Made by a program: the position numbers and the translations under genes | The notes under the pieces: model-generated | The model's input: the letters and a program-made list of their open reading frames with translations, nothing else | Databases searched by the model: none | What the model was told of the DNA's origin: nothing | Part shown: in pieces, positions 2,955 to 63,486 of the stretch | How positions within the stretch are numbered: the first letter of the stretch is position 1 | Layout: each line of letters begins with the position of its first letter | NCBI GenBank assembly: GCA_019749915.1 | Contig: JAIEPE010000044.1 | Span: 1 to 63,486, forward strand | Direction of reading: 5' to 3' | DNA length: 63,486 nucleotides | Source: Alphaproteobacteria bacterium | GTDB taxonomy: Bacteria; Pseudomonadota; Alphaproteobacteria; UBA9655

Positions 2955-5096
2955 ATGAAGAGAATTGCTTGCTTAATATTACCCCTCTTTCAAAATCTCC
3001 ACAAGTCACTCTCCATTATTTTCTCAACACCTGACAAATTTTTCTCGTCGTCATTGCGAGCCCCCAAAGGGGGCGCGGCAATCCATGGATTCATTGGAAA
3101 GATGGATTGCTTCGTCGGGTCTTCGATCCTTCTCGCAATGACGAAAAAAACTGGTTTTCCTTGCTATATAGAAATCCGTCGGGTGGTAAGCATCATTTTA
3201 TGTCTTTCCTCCCCTCTTTATGCCCTTTCTCCTCAAATGGAACTTCAAAAGTGTAAACCGGCTCTTTTAGCTCAGCTCAATCAGCAAAAGCGAATCAAAG
3301 CTGAGGGCTGTCCCGTTTCACAAAAGTTGATTACCTGGCTTGGAATTATAAGAGATGCGGATCAATTTACACCAAAAGAGCTGACAGTTTTTCTGAATGC
3401 TAATAGCCATTGGCCCCACCATGAAAAGCTTTGCCGCCTTGCGGAAGAAACGATTACAAAGAAAGGCTCTCCCGAAGAAATATTTGTGTGGTTTGAAAAC
3501 CATCCTCCCCAAACTCCTTTGGGTGCCCTGGCCTATGCCAAAGTCCACATGCGCCTGAAAGAGAAAACGAAAGCGGCTAAGGTAATCCTCACGGCTTGGC
3601 GTACCATGGATATGACAAAAGCAGAGGAAAGCAAGTATGTCACCAGCTTTGGTCATTTGCTCCAAGAAAAGGAACACCTGGCACGGTTGAATATGCTTTT
3701 ATGGAATGGGGATATTCCAACAGCAAAACGTTTACTGCCGCATATTCCCATTGCAACGCGTAAAGTCGCTGAAATACGTCTTGCTTTTTTAGAAGGAAAA
3801 ACGACAGAGGCGTTAAAAAAGATGCAGACCCTTCCTGTCCAACTGCGGAACAATGAAGGTCTCTTATATGAAAAGGTAAAATACTATCGAAAACAGGATG
3901 AGGTCCAACCAGCAGTTCAAATTCTCATAAAAACCTCCGTAAGTCCCGCCCATGCATCTCAATGGTGGAAAGAGCGGAACTACTTTACCCGCGAACTTAT
4001 CGCGCTTCAGGATTACCAAGGAGCCTACAAACTTCTTAAAAATCATCGTCTTGAAGCAGGCTGCGAAGATTTTGCCACTGCAGAATGGCTTATGGGCTGG
4101 CTCTCTTTGCGCTTTTTAAACCGCCCTAATGAAGCTAAACAGCATTTTGAAACTATGCTGGCCAACGTCAAAGGAGCCATCAGTAAAGCCCGAGGAGCTT
4201 ATTGGATGGGACGCACTTATGAAGCTCAGAATAAAAACAAGCTCGCCGCCAACTGGTATAGAAAAGCCGCTAAGTATAAAACAACCTATTACGGACAGCT
4301 GGCCGCGGCAAAGATACACGATGCCCCCTACCCTTCTCTTGCAAAAGCTCCTTCTGCAACAGCAGAAGAGAAAAAGCGTTTTGAGAAAAAGGATATTGTA
4401 CAAGCAGCCCAGATTTTAAAGGGCCTCGGCAGCAGCGCATCCCATGAGTTGAGTAAATTTCTCCTCCACATCGCTGACAAGGCGGATAATAAGACAGAGC
4501 GTGAACTTTCAGTCATGTTAGCTCACGCCTATTCTCCTTATGATGTGGTGTGGACGGCGAAAAAAGCTGGCTATGCAGAGCCCGTCACCCTTGCCAAGGC
4601 CTATCCCACCCTTACCATCCCCAAAAGAGGTCAGCAGATTCCTGAGAAAGCATTCGTCATGGCGATCACCTATCAAGAAAGTCGTTTCAACCCTACGGCT
4701 GTCAGCTCTGCGGGAGCGACAGGATTGATGCAATTTATGCCCTCGACTGCATCTGAGGAAGCCAAACGCATTGGTATCAAACATGCGGATAAAAAACTCA
4801 CTGACCCCCAGCATAATGTAACTTTAGGGTCCTCTCACCTTTCCTATCTTTTAGGCAAGTTTGATAACTCCTACATCCTTGCCGCAGCGGCCTATAATGC
4901 AGGCACGACACCTGTCTATCGCTGGGTTGAAGAACGTGGCAACCCTCACACAGGTCCCGTTGATGTTGTGGATTGGGTCGAACTTATCCCCTATTCACAA
5001 ACTCGCGATTACGTCATGAGAGTTTTGGAAAACGTGACCCTTTATCGTAGCCTTGACGGTACGCCGAAGAAGACACTTATTGAGGATTTAAAATAA
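2955..5096 (+). CDS. slt: Soluble lytic murein transglycosylase carrying a 59-codon palindromic insert near its N-terminus
   Basis: This periplasmic enzyme cleaves peptidoglycan strands to 1,6-anhydromuropeptides. A long helical region (about residues 90-550, superhelical U/L-type) is followed by the SLT domain, with catalytic Glu575 in QESRFNP, then GATGLMQFMPST and AAAAYNAG. Residues about 20-79 are encoded by an inserted palindromic repeat. Joining the flanks gives a continuous signal peptide (MKRIACLILP, then LSIILCLSSPLYA), which argues that ATG 2955 is the ancestral start. Today a start at ATG 3138, inside the repeat, would also give an export signal ending at LYA. The gene is divergent from dapA. 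Confidence 0.88.
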   Translation: MKRIACLILPLFQNLHKSLSIIFSTPDKFFSSSLRAPKGGAAIHGFIGKMDCFVGSSILLAMTKKTGFPCYIEIRRVVSIILCLSSPLYALSPQMELQKCKPALLAQLNQQKRIKAEGCPVSQKLITWLGIIRDADQFTPKELTVFLNANSHWPHHEKLCRLAEETITKKGSPEEIFVWFENHPPQTPLGALAYAKVHMRLKEKTKAAKVILTAWRTMDMTKAEESKYVTSFGHLLQEKEHLARLNMLLWNGDIPTAKRLLPHIPIATRKVAEIRLAFLEGKTTEALKKMQTLPVQLRNNEGLLYEKVKYYRKQDEVQPAVQILIKTSVSPAHASQWWKERNYFTRELIALQDYQGAYKLLKNHRLEAGCEDFATAEWLMGWLSLRFLNRPNEAKQHFETMLANVKGAISKARGAYWMGRTYEAQNKNKLAANWYRKAAKYKTTYYGQLAAAKIHDAPYPSLAKAPSATAEEKKRFEKKDIVQAAQILKGLGSSASHELSKFLLHIADKADNKTERELSVMLAHAYSPYDVVWTAKKAGYAEPVTLAKAYPTLTIPKRGQQIPEKAFVMAITYQESRFNPTAVSSAGATGLMQFMPSTASEEAKRIGIKHADKKLTDPQHNVTLGSSHLSYLLGKFDNSYILAAAAYNAGTTPVYRWVEERGNPHTGPVDVVDWVELIPYSQTRDYVMRVLENVTLYRSLDGTPKKTLIEDLK
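3028..3185 (+). repeat. Family A palindromic element inserted in slt
   Basis: This 158-bp unit starts CACCTGAC and ends GTCGGGTG. It contains two arms, CGTCATTGCGAG to GCGGCAATCCAT and ATGGATTGC to CTCGCAATGACG, each with its own side hairpin, so the whole can fold as a cruciform. The flanks carry an imperfect direct repeat (CATTATTTT at 3014, CATCATTTT at 3191) whose copies are exactly 177 bp apart. The copy in nuoM has the same length and orientation on the plus strand. It keeps the slt frame open. Confidence 0.85.
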
Positions 5097-7227: not shown

Positions 7228-7313
7228 CCCCACGGTCTGGGCCGCGGGGCGTCAATGTGGAGCATGGCTTTAAACCGGTTTTGACGTCCCGCGGATTTAC
7301 CGCGGGATCCAGT
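7228..7313. repeat. Family B double hairpin downstream of the HAD-like gene
   Basis: Two GC-rich hairpins about 28 bp apart. The first runs from CCCCACGG to CCGCGGGGCGTCAA and the second from TTGACGTCCCGCGG to CCGCGGGATCC. The spacer contains GGCTTTAAACC, as does the copy near 23646-23734. The element starts within 20 bp of the stop codon of the preceding minus-strand gene. It may act as a terminator, but the shared spacer shows it is a repeat family. Confidence 0.75.
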
Positions 7314-7329
7314 CATTTTTTGGATCATG

Positions 7330-11091: not shown

Positions 11092-11272
11092 ACCAGTCTC
11101 ATTTCATGAATTCATCTTGCCCTGACCCTAGCACAGAGATTTAAATTTGTGGAGAGGGTTGAGTATCATTTTTCAACTTTCTTCTTGATTGGCTCGAAAA
11201 CTCCCCTTATTGTTTTATAAAAACTTAATCAATAATAATAAGAAATGAAAAAAACAACTTATCATATATACT

Positions 11273-11313
11273 CGTCATTGCGAGCCTTGCGAAAGCAAGG
11301 CGCGGCAATCCAT
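11273..11313 (+). repeat. Left family A arm of the GIY-YIG element
   Basis: CGTCATTGCGAG, a side hairpin CCTTGC-GAAA-GCAAGG, then CGCGGCAATCCAT. This is the arm design of the left half of the elements in slt and nuoM. It ends about 20 bp before the GIY-YIG start codon and matches the right arm at 11621-11659 in inverted orientation. Confidence 0.85.
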
Positions 11314-11333
11314 GAGGTGATAAATATAACGCC

Positions 11334-11621
11334 ATGAAAATACCAATGGTTTACATTATGGCAAACACAAAGAATGGGACACTTTATACAGGAGTGACAT
11401 CAAATCTCATCAAGAGAGTTTATGAACACAAAGCAGGGATCATGAAAGGATTTACTCATAAATATAGTTGTAAAAATCTTGTCTTTTATGAACTACACGA
11501 CACAATGGAAACGGCAATTATACGCGAAAAACAAATTAAAGCAGGATCACGAAAAAAGAAAATTGAGCTTATTAAGACCATGAATCCTGATTGGAAGGAT
11601 TTATATACAAGTCTTATTTAG
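11334..11621 (+). CDS. Small GIY-YIG nuclease-fold protein framed by palindromic arms
   Basis: A 95-residue single-domain GIY-YIG protein (the YhbQ-like, short uncharacterised class). VYIMANTKNGTLYTG holds the paired-Tyr motif with YTG for YIG. The conserved Arg is in SNLIKRVYEHK, the metal-binding Glu in AIIREKQIK, and the class ending NPDWKDLY is present, so the active site appears intact. No proven cellular role is known to me for this class; a nicking or cleaving activity is expected from the fold. It stands alone between pntA and lpxB, bounded by the palindromic arms also found in gene-less elements in slt and nuoM. The stop codon abuts the right arm. GAGGTGA lies 14 bases before the ATG, farther than ideal. 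Confidence 0.9.
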   Translation: MKIPMVYIMANTKNGTLYTGVTSNLIKRVYEHKAGIMKGFTHKYSCKNLVFYELHDTMETAIIREKQIKAGSRKKKIELIKTMNPDWKDLYTSLI

Positions 11622-11659
11622 GTGGATTGCCGCGGCCCATAAAGGGCCTCGCAATGACG
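11621..11659 (+). repeat. Right family A arm of the GIY-YIG element
   Basis: TGGATTGCCGCG, a side hairpin GCCC-ATAAA-GGGC, then CTCGCAATGACG: the inverted counterpart of the left arm. The GIY-YIG stop codon lies at the first base of this arm. Together the two arms and the gene make a 387-bp unit. Confidence 0.85.
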
Positions 11660-12219
11660 TCCTCCCCAATCGTCATGGCGAGGAGCTTCGCTCCGTGGCC
11701 ATCCACCTTCACTGTTTCCATAGACTTGAATGGTGAAATGAATTGCCGCGCCCACCTTCGCCGAGGCTTCATTGCCCTGGCATCAATCAACACTGCCTAA
11801 ATACTCCCAAGCTTTATGTCTATCATTGGAGAGCCCTTCATCTTGTCCGTCTGGGGCAAGGACTCGAGCTTCCCCCCCTCAAGGATTTTCTGTCCTTGAA
11901 TGAGGTAGTTGATGCTCTGAATGGGGGTGAACATATGGTCAATTGCATGAAAAATTGTTATACATCCTCTACAAGAACGAGGATTGTATTCACTAATACA
12001 GAAACTCGTGATTTCTGGGAATTTTTTAATAGAAGTAATGTTAATGGACGTTCAAGGACCGATTTTTAAAGAAGAAATATATATTAAGCTGAAAAATGGT
12101 CAAAGCTCAATCTTGTAAAGGCGCCGTCCATTTTTCAGCTATTTTCTGGAAAGCACAATAAACCAATTTAAAAAGCACAGTTTCACTTGTAAAAGTGCCT
12201 TTTGTTTTAGTAAATTTCC
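11660..12219. other. Decayed, gene-free stretch with remnants of palindromes
   Basis: About 560 bases without a credible gene. It holds one more arm of family A (11671-11705: CGTCATGGCGAG, hairpin, CGTGGCCATCCA) and what may be its degraded partner near 11738-11785 (ATTGCCGCG ... TTCATTGC). An open frame of about 108 codons at 11743-12069 resembles no family I know and has no ribosome-binding site. Near the lpxB end lies a perfect 12-bp inverted repeat (GCTGAAAAATGG at 12088, CCATTTTTCAGC at 12128). Confidence 0.5.
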
Positions 12220-13428
12220 TCACTTGGAGGCTAGCTCACTAATTTTTATCTCAGAGATGGGAGCTTTCAAAAGATCGACAGCCTGGGCCATGGCTTTTAT
12301 TTCTCCCTCGCGGGCTTTTTCGTCCTTAAACAATTGGAGGAGGCCTCGCGCGATTTTATCTGCCTGGCAGTTTTCCTGGATGTATTCCGGGATCCAACCC
12401 ACTTTGACGTCCCGCGACTTGATCGCGGGATCCATATTACTTTCTCTGGACCCCGCGGTCATGCCGCGGGGCGTCAATAAGTCAGAAGTTAAGACCCCTT
12501 TCTCAAACCCAAGGAGAATATTCACCATACAAACATAAGGAATTTTAATGAGAATGTGGGCGATTTTCCCACTTAACACTCCAAGGGAATAGGCAACCAC
12601 AAAGGGAAGACGAGCCGCCGCCAATTGAAGCGCAACAGTCCCTGAAGCCGCAAGGCCAACGTAAGCCCGCTCAAAAGCCTCATTTCGCTTATCTTCGCCC
12701 TCAACAACACTAACCTCCACAGGCCATGTTTTAACTTGCTTTTCAATGGACTCCTTAAGGGCAGGAAGGGTGGGAATGATAACCTTAAGGCCAGGAATTT
12801 CCTTCTTCACAAGAGAGATCGTTTCCCCAAAAATAGGTAGAAGCATTTTAAGTTCTGAGCGCCGGCTTCCTGGAAGCACACATAAAAGGTTAGGATCCCT
12901 CTTGGGGGTCTTAAAGGTCATCCTTGCAATAGGATGGCCCACAAAAGTTGATTTAAGTCCATACTTTTCAAAAAGTGGAGGTTCAAAGGGATAAAGACAT
13001 AAAAGATGGTCTAAAAACTGTGCGATTTTACGCGCTCTTCCTGGACGCCAAGCCCACACCGTGGGGGCCACGTAATGAACTAACTTTGGTCTTGAAGGAA
13101 GTTTATGAAGACGCTTCATCACACGAAAAGAAAAGTCAGGGGAATCAATGGTGATCACCATATCAGGTTTAACCTCCTGAATGGTTTTGACGGTATAGCG
13201 CAAACGCCTAAGAAGGTTAGGAAGATCACGGAGAATACTAAAAATTCCCATTAAGGACAGCTCCTCCATAGGGAAAAGGCTTTCTAATCCCTCCGCTTTC
13301 ATAGCATCTCCACCGATTCCCATAAAACGGACACCCTGGTTTCTCTTCAGGGAAATTATCAGATCCGCCCCTAGCCTATCACCAGAAGGTTCTCCCGCAA
13401 TTAGAAAAATTAGCGTTCCGGATGACAT
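12220..13428 (-). CDS. lpxB: Lipid-A-disaccharide synthase carrying an in-frame palindromic insert
   Basis: LpxB joins UDP-diacylglucosamine and lipid X to form the lipid A disaccharide at the inner face of the inner membrane. The 402-residue protein has the N-terminal IAGEPSGDRLGADLI, VAPTVWAWRPGRARK, LPGSRRSE and the acceptor-site region AASGTVALQLA. Between MVNILLG and WIPEYIQENC it carries about 30 extra residues, most encoded by a family B palindrome (12404-12477). The family normally continues there directly from NxLLG into the PExxQ helix. The frame stays open. The start overlaps the lpxI end by 19 bases. It is the last gene of the lipid A block. Confidence 0.93.
   Translation of the reverse strand: MSSGTLIFLIAGEPSGDRLGADLIISLKRNQGVRFMGIGGDAMKAEGLESLFPMEELSLMGIFSILRDLPNLLRRLRYTVKTIQEVKPDMVITIDSPDFSFRVMKRLHKLPSRPKLVHYVAPTVWAWRPGRARKIAQFLDHLLCLYPFEPPLFEKYGLKSTFVGHPIARMTFKTPKRDPNLLCVLPGSRRSELKMLLPIFGETISLVKKEIPGLKVIIPTLPALKESIEKQVKTWPVEVSVVEGEDKRNEAFERAYVGLAASGTVALQLAAARLPFVVAYSLGVLSGKIAHILIKIPYVCMVNILLGFEKGVLTSDLLTPRGMTAGSRESNMDPAIKSRDVKVGWIPEYIQENCQADKIARGLLQLFKDEKAREGEIKAMAQAVDLLKAPISEIKISELASK
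12404..12477. repeat. Family B double hairpin inside lpxB
   Basis: A 74-bp unit bounded by TTGACGTCCCGCG on the left and CGCGGGGCGTCAA on the right. It is made of two hairpins (CCCGCG-ACTTGAT-CGCGGG and CCCCGCGG-TCATG-CCGCGGGG) with a short spacer. On the minus strand it is translated in frame as part of LpxB (segment TPRGMTAGS to KSRDVK). Other copies are at 7228, 23646 and 34469. Confidence 0.8.
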
Positions 13429-23605: not shown

Positions 23606-23768
23606 GTCATCCCCGCGAAGGCGGGGATCCAGCTTTGCTTACCCATGGACCCCGCTGTCAAGCAGTGGGGCGTCAATGGTGAGTGTGGCTTTTAAACCAC
23701 CTTTGACGTCCCGCGGATTTACCGCGGGATCCAGTCATTTCCTGGATCCCCGCCTTCGCGGGGATGAC
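23606..23768. repeat. Composite palindromic element (C hairpins around a B double hairpin)
   Basis: A 163-bp unit bounded by perfect 27-bp inverted repeats. The left begins GTCATCCCCGCG and ends GGGGATCCAG; the right is its exact reverse complement. Each repeat is itself a hairpin. Between them lies a family B double hairpin (23646-23734, TGGACCCCGC to GCGGGATCCA) with the GGCTTTTAAACC spacer seen near 7228. The unit separates a ribosome-binding site plus ATG at 23548-23565 from the histidine-phosphatase reading frame. Confidence 0.82.
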
Positions 23769-24660: not shown

Positions 24661-24787
24661 TATACTCTTTGTCTTTCAAGTTTCGGGTGCGTTGCCCTTC
24701 GGGATTCGCCCTCTATCACGTATCAGAATACGCTCATCGGGCTTACCCTTGGGCGCCTACCCGACAATTTGAAATCCTTCGAGTATA
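24661..24787. repeat. Family D palindrome, expanded copy
   Basis: TATACTC...GTCTTTCAAGTTTCGGG at the left and CCCGACAATTTGAAATCC...GAGTATA at the right. The same ends occur 62-63 bp apart at 42688 and 49353; here the central loop holds about 65 extra bases, itself partly palindromic. It lies just after the DUF1653 gene and fills much of the roughly 260-bp gap before rplT. Confidence 0.75.
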
Positions 24788-29815: not shown

Positions 29816-31549
29816 TTACTGCCCATTTCTTAACAAAGCCACTTTAACACCGGACAAATTTTTCTCGTCGTCATTGCGAGCCCACGCAGTGGGCGCGGCA
29901 ATCCATGGATTCATTTGAAAGATGGATTGCTTCGTCGGGTCTTCGACCCTTCTCGCAATGACGAAAAATCGTTGCTTTCCTTGGTGTGTAAAAATCCGTC
30001 CGGTGGTGAGAAAAGCCACTTCAAGGGATTTCTTTGGATTAATCAAAAGATTCCCATCTACTTCAAGGGCCAAATTAAATTGATCAATCACCTTTGATAC
30101 AGAAGCCTCCGCCAGGATCAAAACCGGTGAGGGGTAAAGTCCAAAAAAAAGAACACTCGCCACAAGCGGCGCAAACACTATCTTCTCACGCCAATCAAGA
30201 TCTGTGAGCCCTTTAAGCTTGGGATGAGAAAGCTGTCCAAAAACAACCCTCCGATAAAGCCAAAGAGCGTAAGCGGCTCCCAAAACCATACCAGTCGTGG
30301 CCAGAAGAGTCGCCCATGTATTGGCTTGGAAAGCACCTAAGAGAACAAGAAATTCACCCACAAATCCGCTGGTACCAGGAAGACCTATTGAGGCCAAGAT
30401 AAAAAACATAAAGAATGTCGCATAGCGGGGCATGGTGTGAACAATCCCTCCATAATCAGCAATCTCTCGACTATGGAGCCGATCATAGACAACGCCTACG
30501 CAAATAAAAAGAGCAGCAGATACAAGGCCGTGACTCACCATTTGCATAATGGCCCCTTGAATGCCTTGAGGATCGGCCGTGAAAATCCCTAAGGTCACAA
30601 ATCCCATGTGAGCCACAGAGGCGTAGGCAATCAACTTTTTCATGTCTTTCTGCGCCAGAGCGACAAGAGAAGTATAGATAATTGCGATAATACTAAGAGT
30701 AAAAATCATGGGCGTGAAATAGGCAGAAGCCTCTGGGAATATGGGCAGTGAAAAGCGAATAAATCCATATCCGCCCATTTTCAAAAGAACTCCCGCTAAA
30801 ATAACTGACCCTGCCGTTGGGGCCTCCACATGCGCATCAGGCAGCCAGGTGTGAACAGGCCACATAGGAATTTTGACCGCAAAAGAAGCAAAAAAAGCGA
30901 GCCATAACCACGTTTGAATTTGAGGATCAAACGGTGTCACAAGGGCCGCAGGAATCGAGCTGCTCCCCACCTCAAAATAGATATAAATGATGGCCAGCAA
31001 GCTTAGAACCGACCCCAAAAGGGTATAGAGAAAAAATTTAAAGGCCGCATAAATGCGATTGGGTCCTCCCCAAATGCCAATGATCAAAAACATGGGAATC
31101 AACACACTTTCAAAGAAAAGATAAAAGAGGATAAAATCAAGGGCTGAAAACATCCCCAGCAAAAAGGTTTCCAAGACCAAAAAGGCCACCATATACTCGG
31201 GAACCTTGTCTTGAATAGACGTCCAGCTCACCAGCACACAAAGGGGGATGAGAAAGGCAGAGAGAATAAACAAAGGTAAAGAAATCCCATCCAGACCCAC
31301 ATGATAGCTCATGTTTAAGAGGGGCATCCATTGGAATTTATCCTGAAGCTGAAACTCAGAAGAGGTAACATCAAAATTCCACCATAAGGTCACGGCAAGT
31401 CCCAGGGTCACAAGGGAGGTCCACAAAGCCACCCAGCGGGCATTCATAGCAAGGGAAGTTTGCTTGTTTCCCCAGTTCAAGAGAATAGCAAAAGCTCCTA
31501 GAAGTGGGAGGAAAATGGCGATACTCAGCAGAGGAAGTGATGTTAGCAT
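29816..31549 (-). CDS. nuoM: NADH-quinone oxidoreductase subunit M with a 59-residue C-terminal insert
   Basis: An antiporter-like proton-pumping subunit of complex I. The main body of about 500 residues has LFYLFFESVLIPMFLIIGIWG (Glu of the channel), FASFAVKIPMWPVHTWLPDAHVEAPT and AYASVAHMGF, as in normal NuoM. The C-terminal part is unusual: residues from about FLTTGRIF to KNLSGVKV are encoded by a family A palindrome. Removing 177 bp between direct repeats restores the ending SLEVALLRNGQ. The extra segment is polar and would follow the last membrane region, so the subunit may still work. Confidence 0.95.
   Translation of the reverse strand: MLTSLPLLSIAIFLPLLGAFAILLNWGNKQTSLAMNARWVALWTSLVTLGLAVTLWWNFDVTSSEFQLQDKFQWMPLLNMSYHVGLDGISLPLFILSAFLIPLCVLVSWTSIQDKVPEYMVAFLVLETFLLGMFSALDFILFYLFFESVLIPMFLIIGIWGGPNRIYAAFKFFLYTLLGSVLSLLAIIYIYFEVGSSSIPAALVTPFDPQIQTWLWLAFFASFAVKIPMWPVHTWLPDAHVEAPTAGSVILAGVLLKMGGYGFIRFSLPIFPEASAYFTPMIFTLSIIAIIYTSLVALAQKDMKKLIAYASVAHMGFVTLGIFTADPQGIQGAIMQMVSHGLVSAALFICVGVVYDRLHSREIADYGGIVHTMPRYATFFMFFILASIGLPGTSGFVGEFLVLLGAFQANTWATLLATTGMVLGAAYALWLYRRVVFGQLSHPKLKGLTDLDWREKIVFAPLVASVLFFGLYPSPVLILAEASVSKVIDQFNLALEVDGNLLINPKKSLEVAFLTTGRIFTHQGKQRFFVIARRVEDPTKQSIFQMNPWIAAPTAWARNDDEKNLSGVKVALLRNGQ
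29848..30005 (+). repeat. Family A palindromic element inserted in nuoM
   Basis: A 158-bp unit starting CACCGGAC and ending GTCCGGTG, perfect 8-bp terminal inverted repeats. It has the same arms as the slt copy (CGTCATTGCGAG, GCGGCAATCCAT, ATGGATTGC, CTCGCAATGACG) and is highly similar throughout. The flanks carry AAAGCCACTTTAA (29835-29847) and AAAGCCACTTCAA (30012-30024), 12 of 13 identical, 177 bp apart. That pattern fits insertion with target-site duplication. Confidence 0.88.
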
Positions 31550-42687: not shown

Positions 42688-42749
42688 TATGCTCTTCGCC
42701 TTTCAAACTCCGGGTGCGTTGCCCGGCAACTTGAAATTCTTTGAGTATA
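42688..42749. repeat. Family D palindrome upstream of nuoA
   Basis: A 62-bp near-palindrome: TATGCTCTTCGCCTTTCAAA at the left and TTGAAATTCTTTGAGTATA at the right, around CCGGG-TGCGTTG-CCCGG. Other copies are at 24661 and 49353. It lies between nuoA and the next minus-strand gene and could terminate the upstream transcript. Confidence 0.75.
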
Positions 42750-49352: not shown

Positions 49353-49415
49353 TATACTCTTCGTCTTTTAAATTTCCGGGCAACACACCCGGAAACTTGA
49401 AATCCTTTGAGTGTA
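49353..49415. repeat. Family D palindrome after the peroxiredoxin gene
   Basis: TATACTCTTCGTCTTTTAAA at the left and TTGAAATCCTTTGAGTGTA at the right, around CCGGG...CCCGG. It starts two bases after the stop codon. Close copies are at 24661 and 42688. The rest of the roughly 300-bp gap to pdhC holds only the stem near 49502. Confidence 0.78.
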
Positions 49416-63218: not shown

Positions 63219-63486
63219 AAAAAGATCGGGGGTAAAAATCTCAAGAGCTTGATTCTCTAGGAATCCATAGCTTTTAATGACAGAAACTCCTAACACGACC
63301 ATCAAAACACCACTCTCTTTACCAACACCACCACCATTACTCTTCAAAACACCACTCTCTTTACCAGCACCACCAATATTACTCTTCAAAACACCACTCT
63401 CTTTACCAACACCACCAATATTACTCTTCAAAACACCACTCTCTTTACCAACACCACCAATATTACTCTTCAAAACACCACTCTCT
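63204..63486 (-). CDS. Partial ORF: C-terminal end of a protein with 14-residue tandem repeats
   Basis: The minus strand is open from the right edge of the window to a stop at 63204. Four full copies and part of a fifth of a 14-residue unit (KSNIGGVGKESGVL, with few changes) are followed by a unique 32-residue end (VVLGVSVIKSYGFLENQALE to RGQD). The N-terminus lies outside the window, so neither length nor start is known. Repeats of this regular kind are seen in surface or adhesin-like proteins, but the reading frame could also be a by-product of a non-coding tandem repeat. The terminator at its end favours a transcript on this strand. Confidence 0.5.
   Translation of the reverse strand, partial: ESGVLKSNIGGVGKESGVLKSNIGGVGKESGVLKSNIGGAGKESGVLKSNGGGVGKESGVLMVVLGVSVIKSYGFLENQALEIFTPDLFRGQD
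63308..63486. repeat. 42-bp tandem repeat, at least four copies, continuing past the window
   Basis: Units start at 63308, 63350, 63392, 63434 and 63476 (last one cut by the window edge). Copies differ at only a few positions; the first has CCACCATTAC where later ones have CCAATATTAC, and the second has CCAGC for CCAAC. 42 bp is 14 codons, so length changes keep the frame. There are no spacers between the units. Confidence 0.92.

Follow-up and report, generated by a model that had tools for sequence, protein, structure and literature searches.

The window, by which we mean the whole stretch of 63,486 nucleotides analyzed here, carries a short GIY-YIG endonuclease gene between two hairpin arms of the same type (Table 1), in agreement with the original prediction. 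The left arm reads CGTCATTGCGAG-hairpin-CGCGGCAATCCA and the right arm TGGATTGCCGCG-hairpin-CTCGCAATGACG, and the two stand in inverted orientation with their CGTC ends outward. The stop codon TAG (11619-11621) had been placed on the first base of the right arm; this was off by about 2 bases, as the arm begins at 11623. A second, partly decayed arm pair follows on the right of the gene (11671-11771). Both arms around the gene have the hallmarks of CGTC REPs: of the unpaired CGTC/TGTC tag expected at one end, they show CGTC, and the stem starting with AT and followed by a CCA tail takes the form ATTGC...GCAAT-CCA. They consist of a 5-bp outer stem, an internal loop, and an inner stem, with a 4-nt loop in the left arm (the superfamily form has a stem of 8 to 9 bp and a loop of 4 to 5 nt); the 8-bp stem form is present at many other REP-GIY loci. 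A pattern count gives 38 CGTC REPs in the window's genome, and the exact 12-mer CGTCATTGCGAG occurs 40 times in its 2.08 Mb, the reversed-pattern control occurring 0 times. The unit is not a REP/RAYT unit, since the framed gene encodes a GIY-YIG protein and no HUH/Y1 tyrosine transposase, and the foot is CGTC, not GTAG.

Table 1. Features of the GIY-YIG locus and of the related elements in the window
Feature	Position	Strand	Evidence
GIY-YIG endonuclease gene, 95 aa, catalytic residues intact	11334..11621	+	Pfam PF01541, E 2.6e-15
Left CGTC-tagged REP, tag outward, tail gene-ward	11273..11312	+	Sequence; 1 of 38 pattern-found genome REPs
Right CGTC-tagged REP, tag outward, tail gene-ward	11623..11659	-	Sequence; 84% complementary to slt arm 3049-3085
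Second REP rightward (CGTCATGGCGAG...GGCCATCCA), first half of second dimer	11671..11705	+	Sequence; also at G000:C64
Decayed partner of second REP	11741..11771	-	Two copies aligned; C64 copy intact to CGTC tag
Left 98 bp of shared block, resembling leader of Transposase_31 (YhgA/Rpn-like) gene	11175..11272	+	Comparison with G014
168-bp MITE with internal REP dimer, 5' part of slt ORF	3023..3190	.	Empty site in G009, G010, G014; 9-bp target duplication CATTATTTT/CATCATTTT
168-bp MITE with internal REP dimer, 3' end of nuoM ORF	29843..30010	.	Empty site in G009, G010, G014; target duplication CAAAGCCAC/AAAAGCCAC

Other repeats are also present in the window. A palindromic repeat, TTTGACGTCCCGCGG-loop-CCGCGGGATCCAG, has three copies (7269-7326, 12392-12449, and 23691-23748) with a similar GTC...ATCCAG foot. 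Several units of a 42-bp tandem repeat (TCAAAACACCACTCTCTTTACCAACACCACCAATATTACTCT) occupy 63260-63469, and a 37-bp repeat (TATACTCTTTGTCTTTCAAGTTTCGGGTGCGTTGCCC) lies at 24661-24697, 42688-42724, and 49353-49389, the third copy being just 68% alike.

Previously, the elements in slt and nuoM were proposed to derive from the GIY element by loss of the gene. Both do contain these arms in the same order, but as the inner part of a longer, 168-bp element, which has terminal repeats and a target duplication of its own. The outer ends of this element (CTTA-CACC-GACAAATTT and AAATCCGTC-GGTGGTGAG) are conserved across 11 aligned copies; at least 7 of the 9 flanking bases agree on both sides in 8 of these 11, of which L024 and L025 share flanks and may represent one event, while one copy was not parsable. 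With terminal inverted repeats, a target duplication, no gene, and many copies (at least 14 of at least 142 bp in the window's genome, query copy included), the slt and nuoM elements are MITEs, and we rejected them as stripped copies of the GIY element on account of their own ends and 9-bp target duplications. They are best read as moved by a TIR-recognizing transposase, with the REP dimer as cargo. With at least 14 such copies, much of the 38 pattern-counted REPs is MITE cargo. In the window's genus, the GIY units L033, L034, L046, L047, and L051 have extra outer terminal repeats (AACCTGAGTTTTGGATAAGG; ACCTGACAAATTTT), and ACCTGACAAATTTT resembles the ends of the window's MITEs; the pattern would suit a nesting of MITEs and REP-GIY units.

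A second copy of the gene with its arms was found at G000:C64, encoding a protein 94% identical to that of the window, and a third paralogue in the window's genome (60% identity) has no such arm. The DNA common to both framed copies runs from about 11175 to 11771. This whole duplicated block was rejected as the mobile unit because the 98 bp at its left end look like the leader of a Transposase_31 gene, which is insertion-free in the relative G014, where the pntA-lpxB site holds a Transposase_31 ORF of 347 aa (PF04754, E 8.9e-48). The right side of the C64 copy continues into sequence resembling the 3' part of the same ORF. In G009, pntA adjoins lpxB, with no Transposase_31 ORF between them. 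The CGTC tag is therefore the most likely start of the element proper. The G014 ORF (L256, 2794-3837) has a long tail of Gly-Leu-Glu-Gln-Gly-Val-Gln-Gln repeats; in the window, the GIY unit takes up this pntA-lpxB site. A framed GIY gene also adjoins lpxB in Sinorhizobium meliloti (L294), as in the window, probably by coincidence.

The window protein has the fold and the catalytic Tyr-Tyr-Arg-Glu set of the GIY-YIG superfamily. Residues Y7, Y18, R28, H32, E65, and N84 are conserved in 162 to 165 of 165 relatives, and the enzyme thus appears to be under selection as a nuclease. The solved structures nearest to its AlphaFold model (pLDDT 95.9) are HIGLE, Slx1, UPF0213, and I-TevI, at Z scores of about 6 to 7, a middling range (about 7 for the branched-DNA nucleases Slx1 and HIGLE; 5.7 to 5.8 for I-TevI). 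The fold, the neighbors Slx1 and HIGLE, and the conserved active site together make structure-selective cutting at a hairpin foot plausible. The closest sequence relatives with a solved structure are the UPF0213/YhbQ proteins; the class profile matches structure 1zg2 with an E value of 9.8e-7. Ten low-scoring rows, including L209 and L212, form one starred branch that leaves out the window protein, so membership in UPF0213/YhbQ is not indicated, on a tree with few columns and many weak branches. In an NCBIfam search, the window protein and five UPF0213-like proteins remained unnamed above the cut-offs, and the annotated records examined name the class proteins just 'GIY-YIG nuclease family protein'.

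The similarity in fold to branched-DNA nucleases would also suit a housekeeping role, in which the nuclease removes or resolves replication-stalling REP cruciforms and its gene adjoins REPs by co-selection. In line with this, a 2013 survey of these repeats suggests that replication may be stalled by hairpins or cruciforms arising from REP dimers (Di Nocera et al., PMC3733652). Such a role leaves unexplained why the gene lies between the arms, why it occupies differing places in related species, and why one genome (G187) has up to 7 gene matches, fragments included. We consider it very improbable.

The pairing of gene and palindromes recurs well beyond the window. Three samples were analyzed: 80 named loci, which are the best 80 of at least 580; 74 loci of the phylum from 299 genomes, a high-scoring, non-random choice (29 first, the next 40 of 60, and five lower ones); and 23 loci of the order, matched in 14 of 17 genomes. 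Four of these 177 loci were dropped from the association counts for short flanks, leaving 173. The palindromes around the class genes have widely differing stems on like feet, that is, GTC and an AT-opening stem at one side and AT and CC at the other. A strict CGTC REP lies within 200 bp of the gene at 117 of the 173 loci, with a detector that fixes the GTCAT...ATCC foot and misses variant feet, and the full tag-outward frame of strict REPs was seen at 51. A model-free test, in which the upstream flank was aligned to the reverse-complemented downstream flank, gave an inverted match at 109 of the 173 (12 of the 23 loci in the order sample). One or the other signal is present at 152 loci, and at 21 neither the strict-REP detector nor the inverted-flank test was positive. 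Direct, non-inverted flank matches are also frequent (79/173) because REP dimers match both ways. The nearest REP has its tag outward at 73 of 94 loci upstream and 66 of 97 downstream (p 2.4e-10), and some units have the form dimer-gene-dimer.

UPF0213-like genes, which share the fold and come from the same phylum sample, served as the control: none of 30 distinct loci had a strict REP or inverted flanks, and the difference for strict REPs within 200 bp (117/173 versus 0/30) corresponds to a Fisher p of 1.9e-13. This control comprised 32 rows with two genes represented twice (L303/L210 and L305/L209), and 29 of its members were fetched for the purpose. L209, L210, and L212 had been chosen from the low set after their flanks were seen; the control without them stands at 0/29. 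Two tested members match UPF0213 structures in a single-sequence search (E 5.5e-16 and 1.5e-15). Among control ORFs taken from the same loci, 5 of 157 had inverted flank matches, as did 61 of 860 partner-swapped flanks. REPs themselves are not rare near control ORFs, as strict ones lie within 200 bp of 11/120 in the named, 5/20 in the phylum, and 0/8 in the order sample; framed control ORFs number 2/120, 0/20, and 0/8, respectively. The relaxed detector has a high background (59/120 control ORFs).

The low-scoring GIY-YIG set L203-L217 (0/15 with strict REPs) was rejected as a negative control, as 11 of its members are another clade with other palindromes. This second clade (VYILRCADGSYYTGLT... 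KGWSRAKKEALI; L203-L205, L207, L208, L211, and L213-L217) shows inverted flanks at 10 of its 11 loci, and most of these visibly consist of a different palindrome, TCATCCTGAG...CTTCGAAGGATGA.

The association was seen in Alpha-, Beta-, and Gammaproteobacteria. Single REP-GIY loci are recorded as Bacteroidota, Cyanobacteriota, Bipolaricaulota, and Dehalococcoidia, the last two on short MAG contigs whose assignment is less sure. Among nine named examples taken from 26 plasmid-collection records and partly read by eye, palindromes lie on both sides of the gene in N. gonorrhoeae, Azospirillum lipoferum, Aeromonas caviae, S. meliloti, N. aromaticivorans, Planktothrix, and Spirosoma. The N. gonorrhoeae locus is not a simple tag-outward frame, the Photobacterium locus has one REP, 331 bp away, and no REP was found at the locus of Rhizobium sp. 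K1/93. The 2013 survey reports CGTC REPs from five phyla, including the Neisseria repeat dRS3 and the Rickettsia repeats RPE-4 and RPE-6, and names Neisseriae, A. lipoferum, S. meliloti, and N. aromaticivorans for CGTC repeats (PMC3733652). For each of these four, one record has the gene with palindromes on both sides (partly by eye). By the outcomes named beforehand as refuting the original prediction, the picture is mixed: 21 of the 173 class genes are without detected arms, and there are REP-rich genomes in which the gene was not detected (below).

The association is also family-specific. Relaxed REPs flank the gene upstream and downstream at 98 of 177 loci, and at 63 of these the two stems agree in their first 5 nucleotides, the mean over 2000 shuffles being 18.8 and the maximum 30. 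A maximum-likelihood tree was built from 177 nucleases, after 15 of 192 rows were dropped for stops or short length, and labeled with six stem families, 'other', 'none', and the low set. These labels need 69 changes against 109.9 when shuffled, and none of 200 shuffles was as low; the tree has few columns and weak branch support, and near relatives contribute to the clustering. The TTGCG label needs 14 changes (33.2 shuffled), and the CCT label is not clearly clustered (8 versus 8.9). The REP stem family follows the nuclease lineage. The suggestion that nuclease and palindromes belong together is upheld by this specificity, by the recurrence across bacteria, and by the 0/30 at UPF0213-like loci.

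The same results bear on a further explanation, that a DDE transposase moves TIR transposons or MITEs in which the gene and its REPs are passengers, with no part for the nuclease in the movement. The REP dimers inside the 168-bp MITEs of the window's genus, with their 9-bp target duplications, and the outer terminal repeats at the GIY loci L033, L034, L046, and L047 speak for it. However, such repeats, looked at in the window's genus, occur there in few loci, while the flanking by REPs extends across phyla. Furthermore, UPF0213-like genes are unframed, and a passenger would not need a stem family that follows the nuclease tree. The passenger explanation appears improbable.

The original prediction also called for comparing the presence of the nuclease gene with the copy number of gene-less elements. 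Across the 299 genomes the two go together for the TTGCGAG family, as the gene is present in 14 of the 15 genomes with at least 10 such REPs and in 60 of the 284 others (Fisher p 1.4e-8). Presence here means a match with E up to 1e-18, fragments counted (G127, G105, G104, and G075), and many of the 299 genomes are incomplete. For the NCCNGCG families, the gene is present in 17 of 27 genomes with at least 10 copies versus 57 of 272 others, and in 5 of 9 with at least 20 copies versus 69 of 290 others. On the other hand, REP-rich genomes in which the gene was not detected exist, namely G303 (102 TTGCGAG copies), G053 (152 NCCNGCG copies), G181 (112), G069 (47), and G172 (46). Within the window's genus, the number of REPs does not go with the matching nuclease, and no TTGCG-type nuclease was found in G005 (55 copies; genome 83% complete) or G008 (29 copies).

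REP-GIY-REP units lie at non-orthologous places, and close relatives lack them at the corresponding position. In A. lipoferum 4B, sufB and sufC are 617 bp apart, and the space between them contains the gene flanked by one REP dimer to its left and another to its right. The corresponding gap is 91 bp in A. ramasamyi, 87 bp in A. oryzae, 129 bp in strain B510, and 55 bp in A. thermophilum, and neither a CGTC REP nor the gene was found at this site in these four or in A. argentinense. The A. ramasamyi flanks are 96.8% identical to those of A. lipoferum, and all 11 other Azospirillum records listed align to the A. lipoferum locus in the two flanks alone. In genus g12, of which 80 genomes were searched (G216 included), the gene interval of G216 measures about 870 bp, and that of G341, with a left flank 94% identical, 109 bp. 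Loci from 29 relatives were retrieved for this site; the gene is absent in all 23 with both flanks readable. Four of these 23 (G336, G350, G385, and G364; L225, L244, L247, and L250) have gene-less REPs in both orientations, 2 have REPs in a single orientation, and the remaining 17 lack strict REPs. Homology blocks between related loci end within 5 nt of a CGTC tag at 11 of 27 informative ends (2.4 expected) and away from a tag at the other 16, in 23 locus pairs that are not independent. Clear block ends are those of L107/L118 (left), L156/L157 (left), L039/L048 (both), L086/L100 (right), and L139/L163 (right).

These sites bring in the main rival to a mobilizing role, namely, that the protein acts as a free-standing homing endonuclease on REP dimers, into whose spacer its gene is copied after the cut; the REPs would be its target and would be spread by something else. 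The gene does sit at a dimer-spacer position at many loci. The gene-less REPs in both orientations at the G216 site suit homing at least as well, and since they occur in 4 of 23 relatives and not just in G336, they make mobilization slightly less and homing slightly more likely. Family-specific pairing fits equally. Besides, GIY-YIG homing endonucleases are well known (PMC1564403), and REPs are reported as insertion-sequence targets (PMC1525189). In contrast, A. lipoferum has two REP dimers and the gene where five relatives have neither, so REPs and gene may have arrived together. Some units are dimer-gene-dimer, which also speaks against homing, and the 2013 survey gives no other enzyme for CGTC REPs (PMC3733652). 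On this evidence, homing seems unlikely, although it deserves more weight than the housekeeping and passenger explanations.

We therefore favor, as reasonably probable, the reading that the window-class GIY-YIG protein is a dedicated endonuclease of CGTC REPs, analogous to RAYT but of unrelated fold, through which the REPs would move. The protein may recognize the hairpin foot, made up of the 5' tag GTC, first stem pairs that are usually AT/AT, and the 3' tail CCA, when a REP is extruded as a hairpin or cruciform. It would then cut at this foot, and repair of the cut would copy or insert REPs, REP dimers, or the gene-bearing unit elsewhere. The nuclease would thus play for CGTC REPs the part proposed for RAYT with GTAG REPs, using a hydrolytic GIY-YIG active site where RAYT uses a HUH tyrosine. 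A GIY-YIG enzyme alone is not known to have strand-transfer activity, which counts against mobilization, as does the large share of the REPs in the window's genome that sits in MITEs. Of the earlier proposal that the nuclease may recognize or move the arms, the association and the family match are borne out and movement is inferred, but the gene-less slt and nuoM copies have dropped out as derivatives.

The unit resembles REP/RAYT systems (REPtrons, REPINs) in that a nuclease gene is flanked by inverted REPs with a conserved foot, gene-less REPs are dispersed in the genome, and gene and REP families match. Unlike RAYT, which is a HUH tyrosine transposase working with a GTAG foot, the protein here is of GIY-YIG fold and goes with a GTC...CC foot. 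It shares the catalytic fold and a gene at differing genomic sites with homing endonucleases of the I-TevI class; however, the window protein, at 95 aa, is the catalytic domain alone, and its gene is REP-flanked and not in an intron or intein. UPF0213/YhbQ proteins, in spite of their sequence kinship, differ in having no palindrome frame around their genes. The repeats themselves match the CGTC REPs of the 2013 survey (PMC3733652) by the CGTC/TGTC tag, the AT-start stem, the CCA tail, and the mostly head-to-head dimers. According to that survey, CGTC REPs 'apparently lack a dedicated transposase' and were associated with no transposase; the present study adds a GIY-YIG partner. Among the matches listed, mostly from open-access literature with preprints largely outside it, we found no published link between GIY-YIG proteins and REPs.

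It is conceivable, with the case about evenly balanced, that short GIY-YIG nucleases are the missing mobilizers of CGTC REPs and that the second clade serves TCATCCTGAG...CTTCGAAGGATGA. Together they would make up a RAYT-independent class of REP nucleases that spreads hairpins via cleavage and host repair. The REP partnership gives a biological context to proteins annotated merely as 'GIY-YIG nuclease family protein'. With a family-matched nuclease, defined hairpin substrates, and laboratory-friendly carriers such as A. lipoferum and S. meliloti, the spread of CGTC REPs, for which the survey had no dedicated transposase (PMC3733652), becomes directly testable. If true, such a class of REP nucleases could explain a large share of the palindromic DNA interspersed in bacterial genomes.
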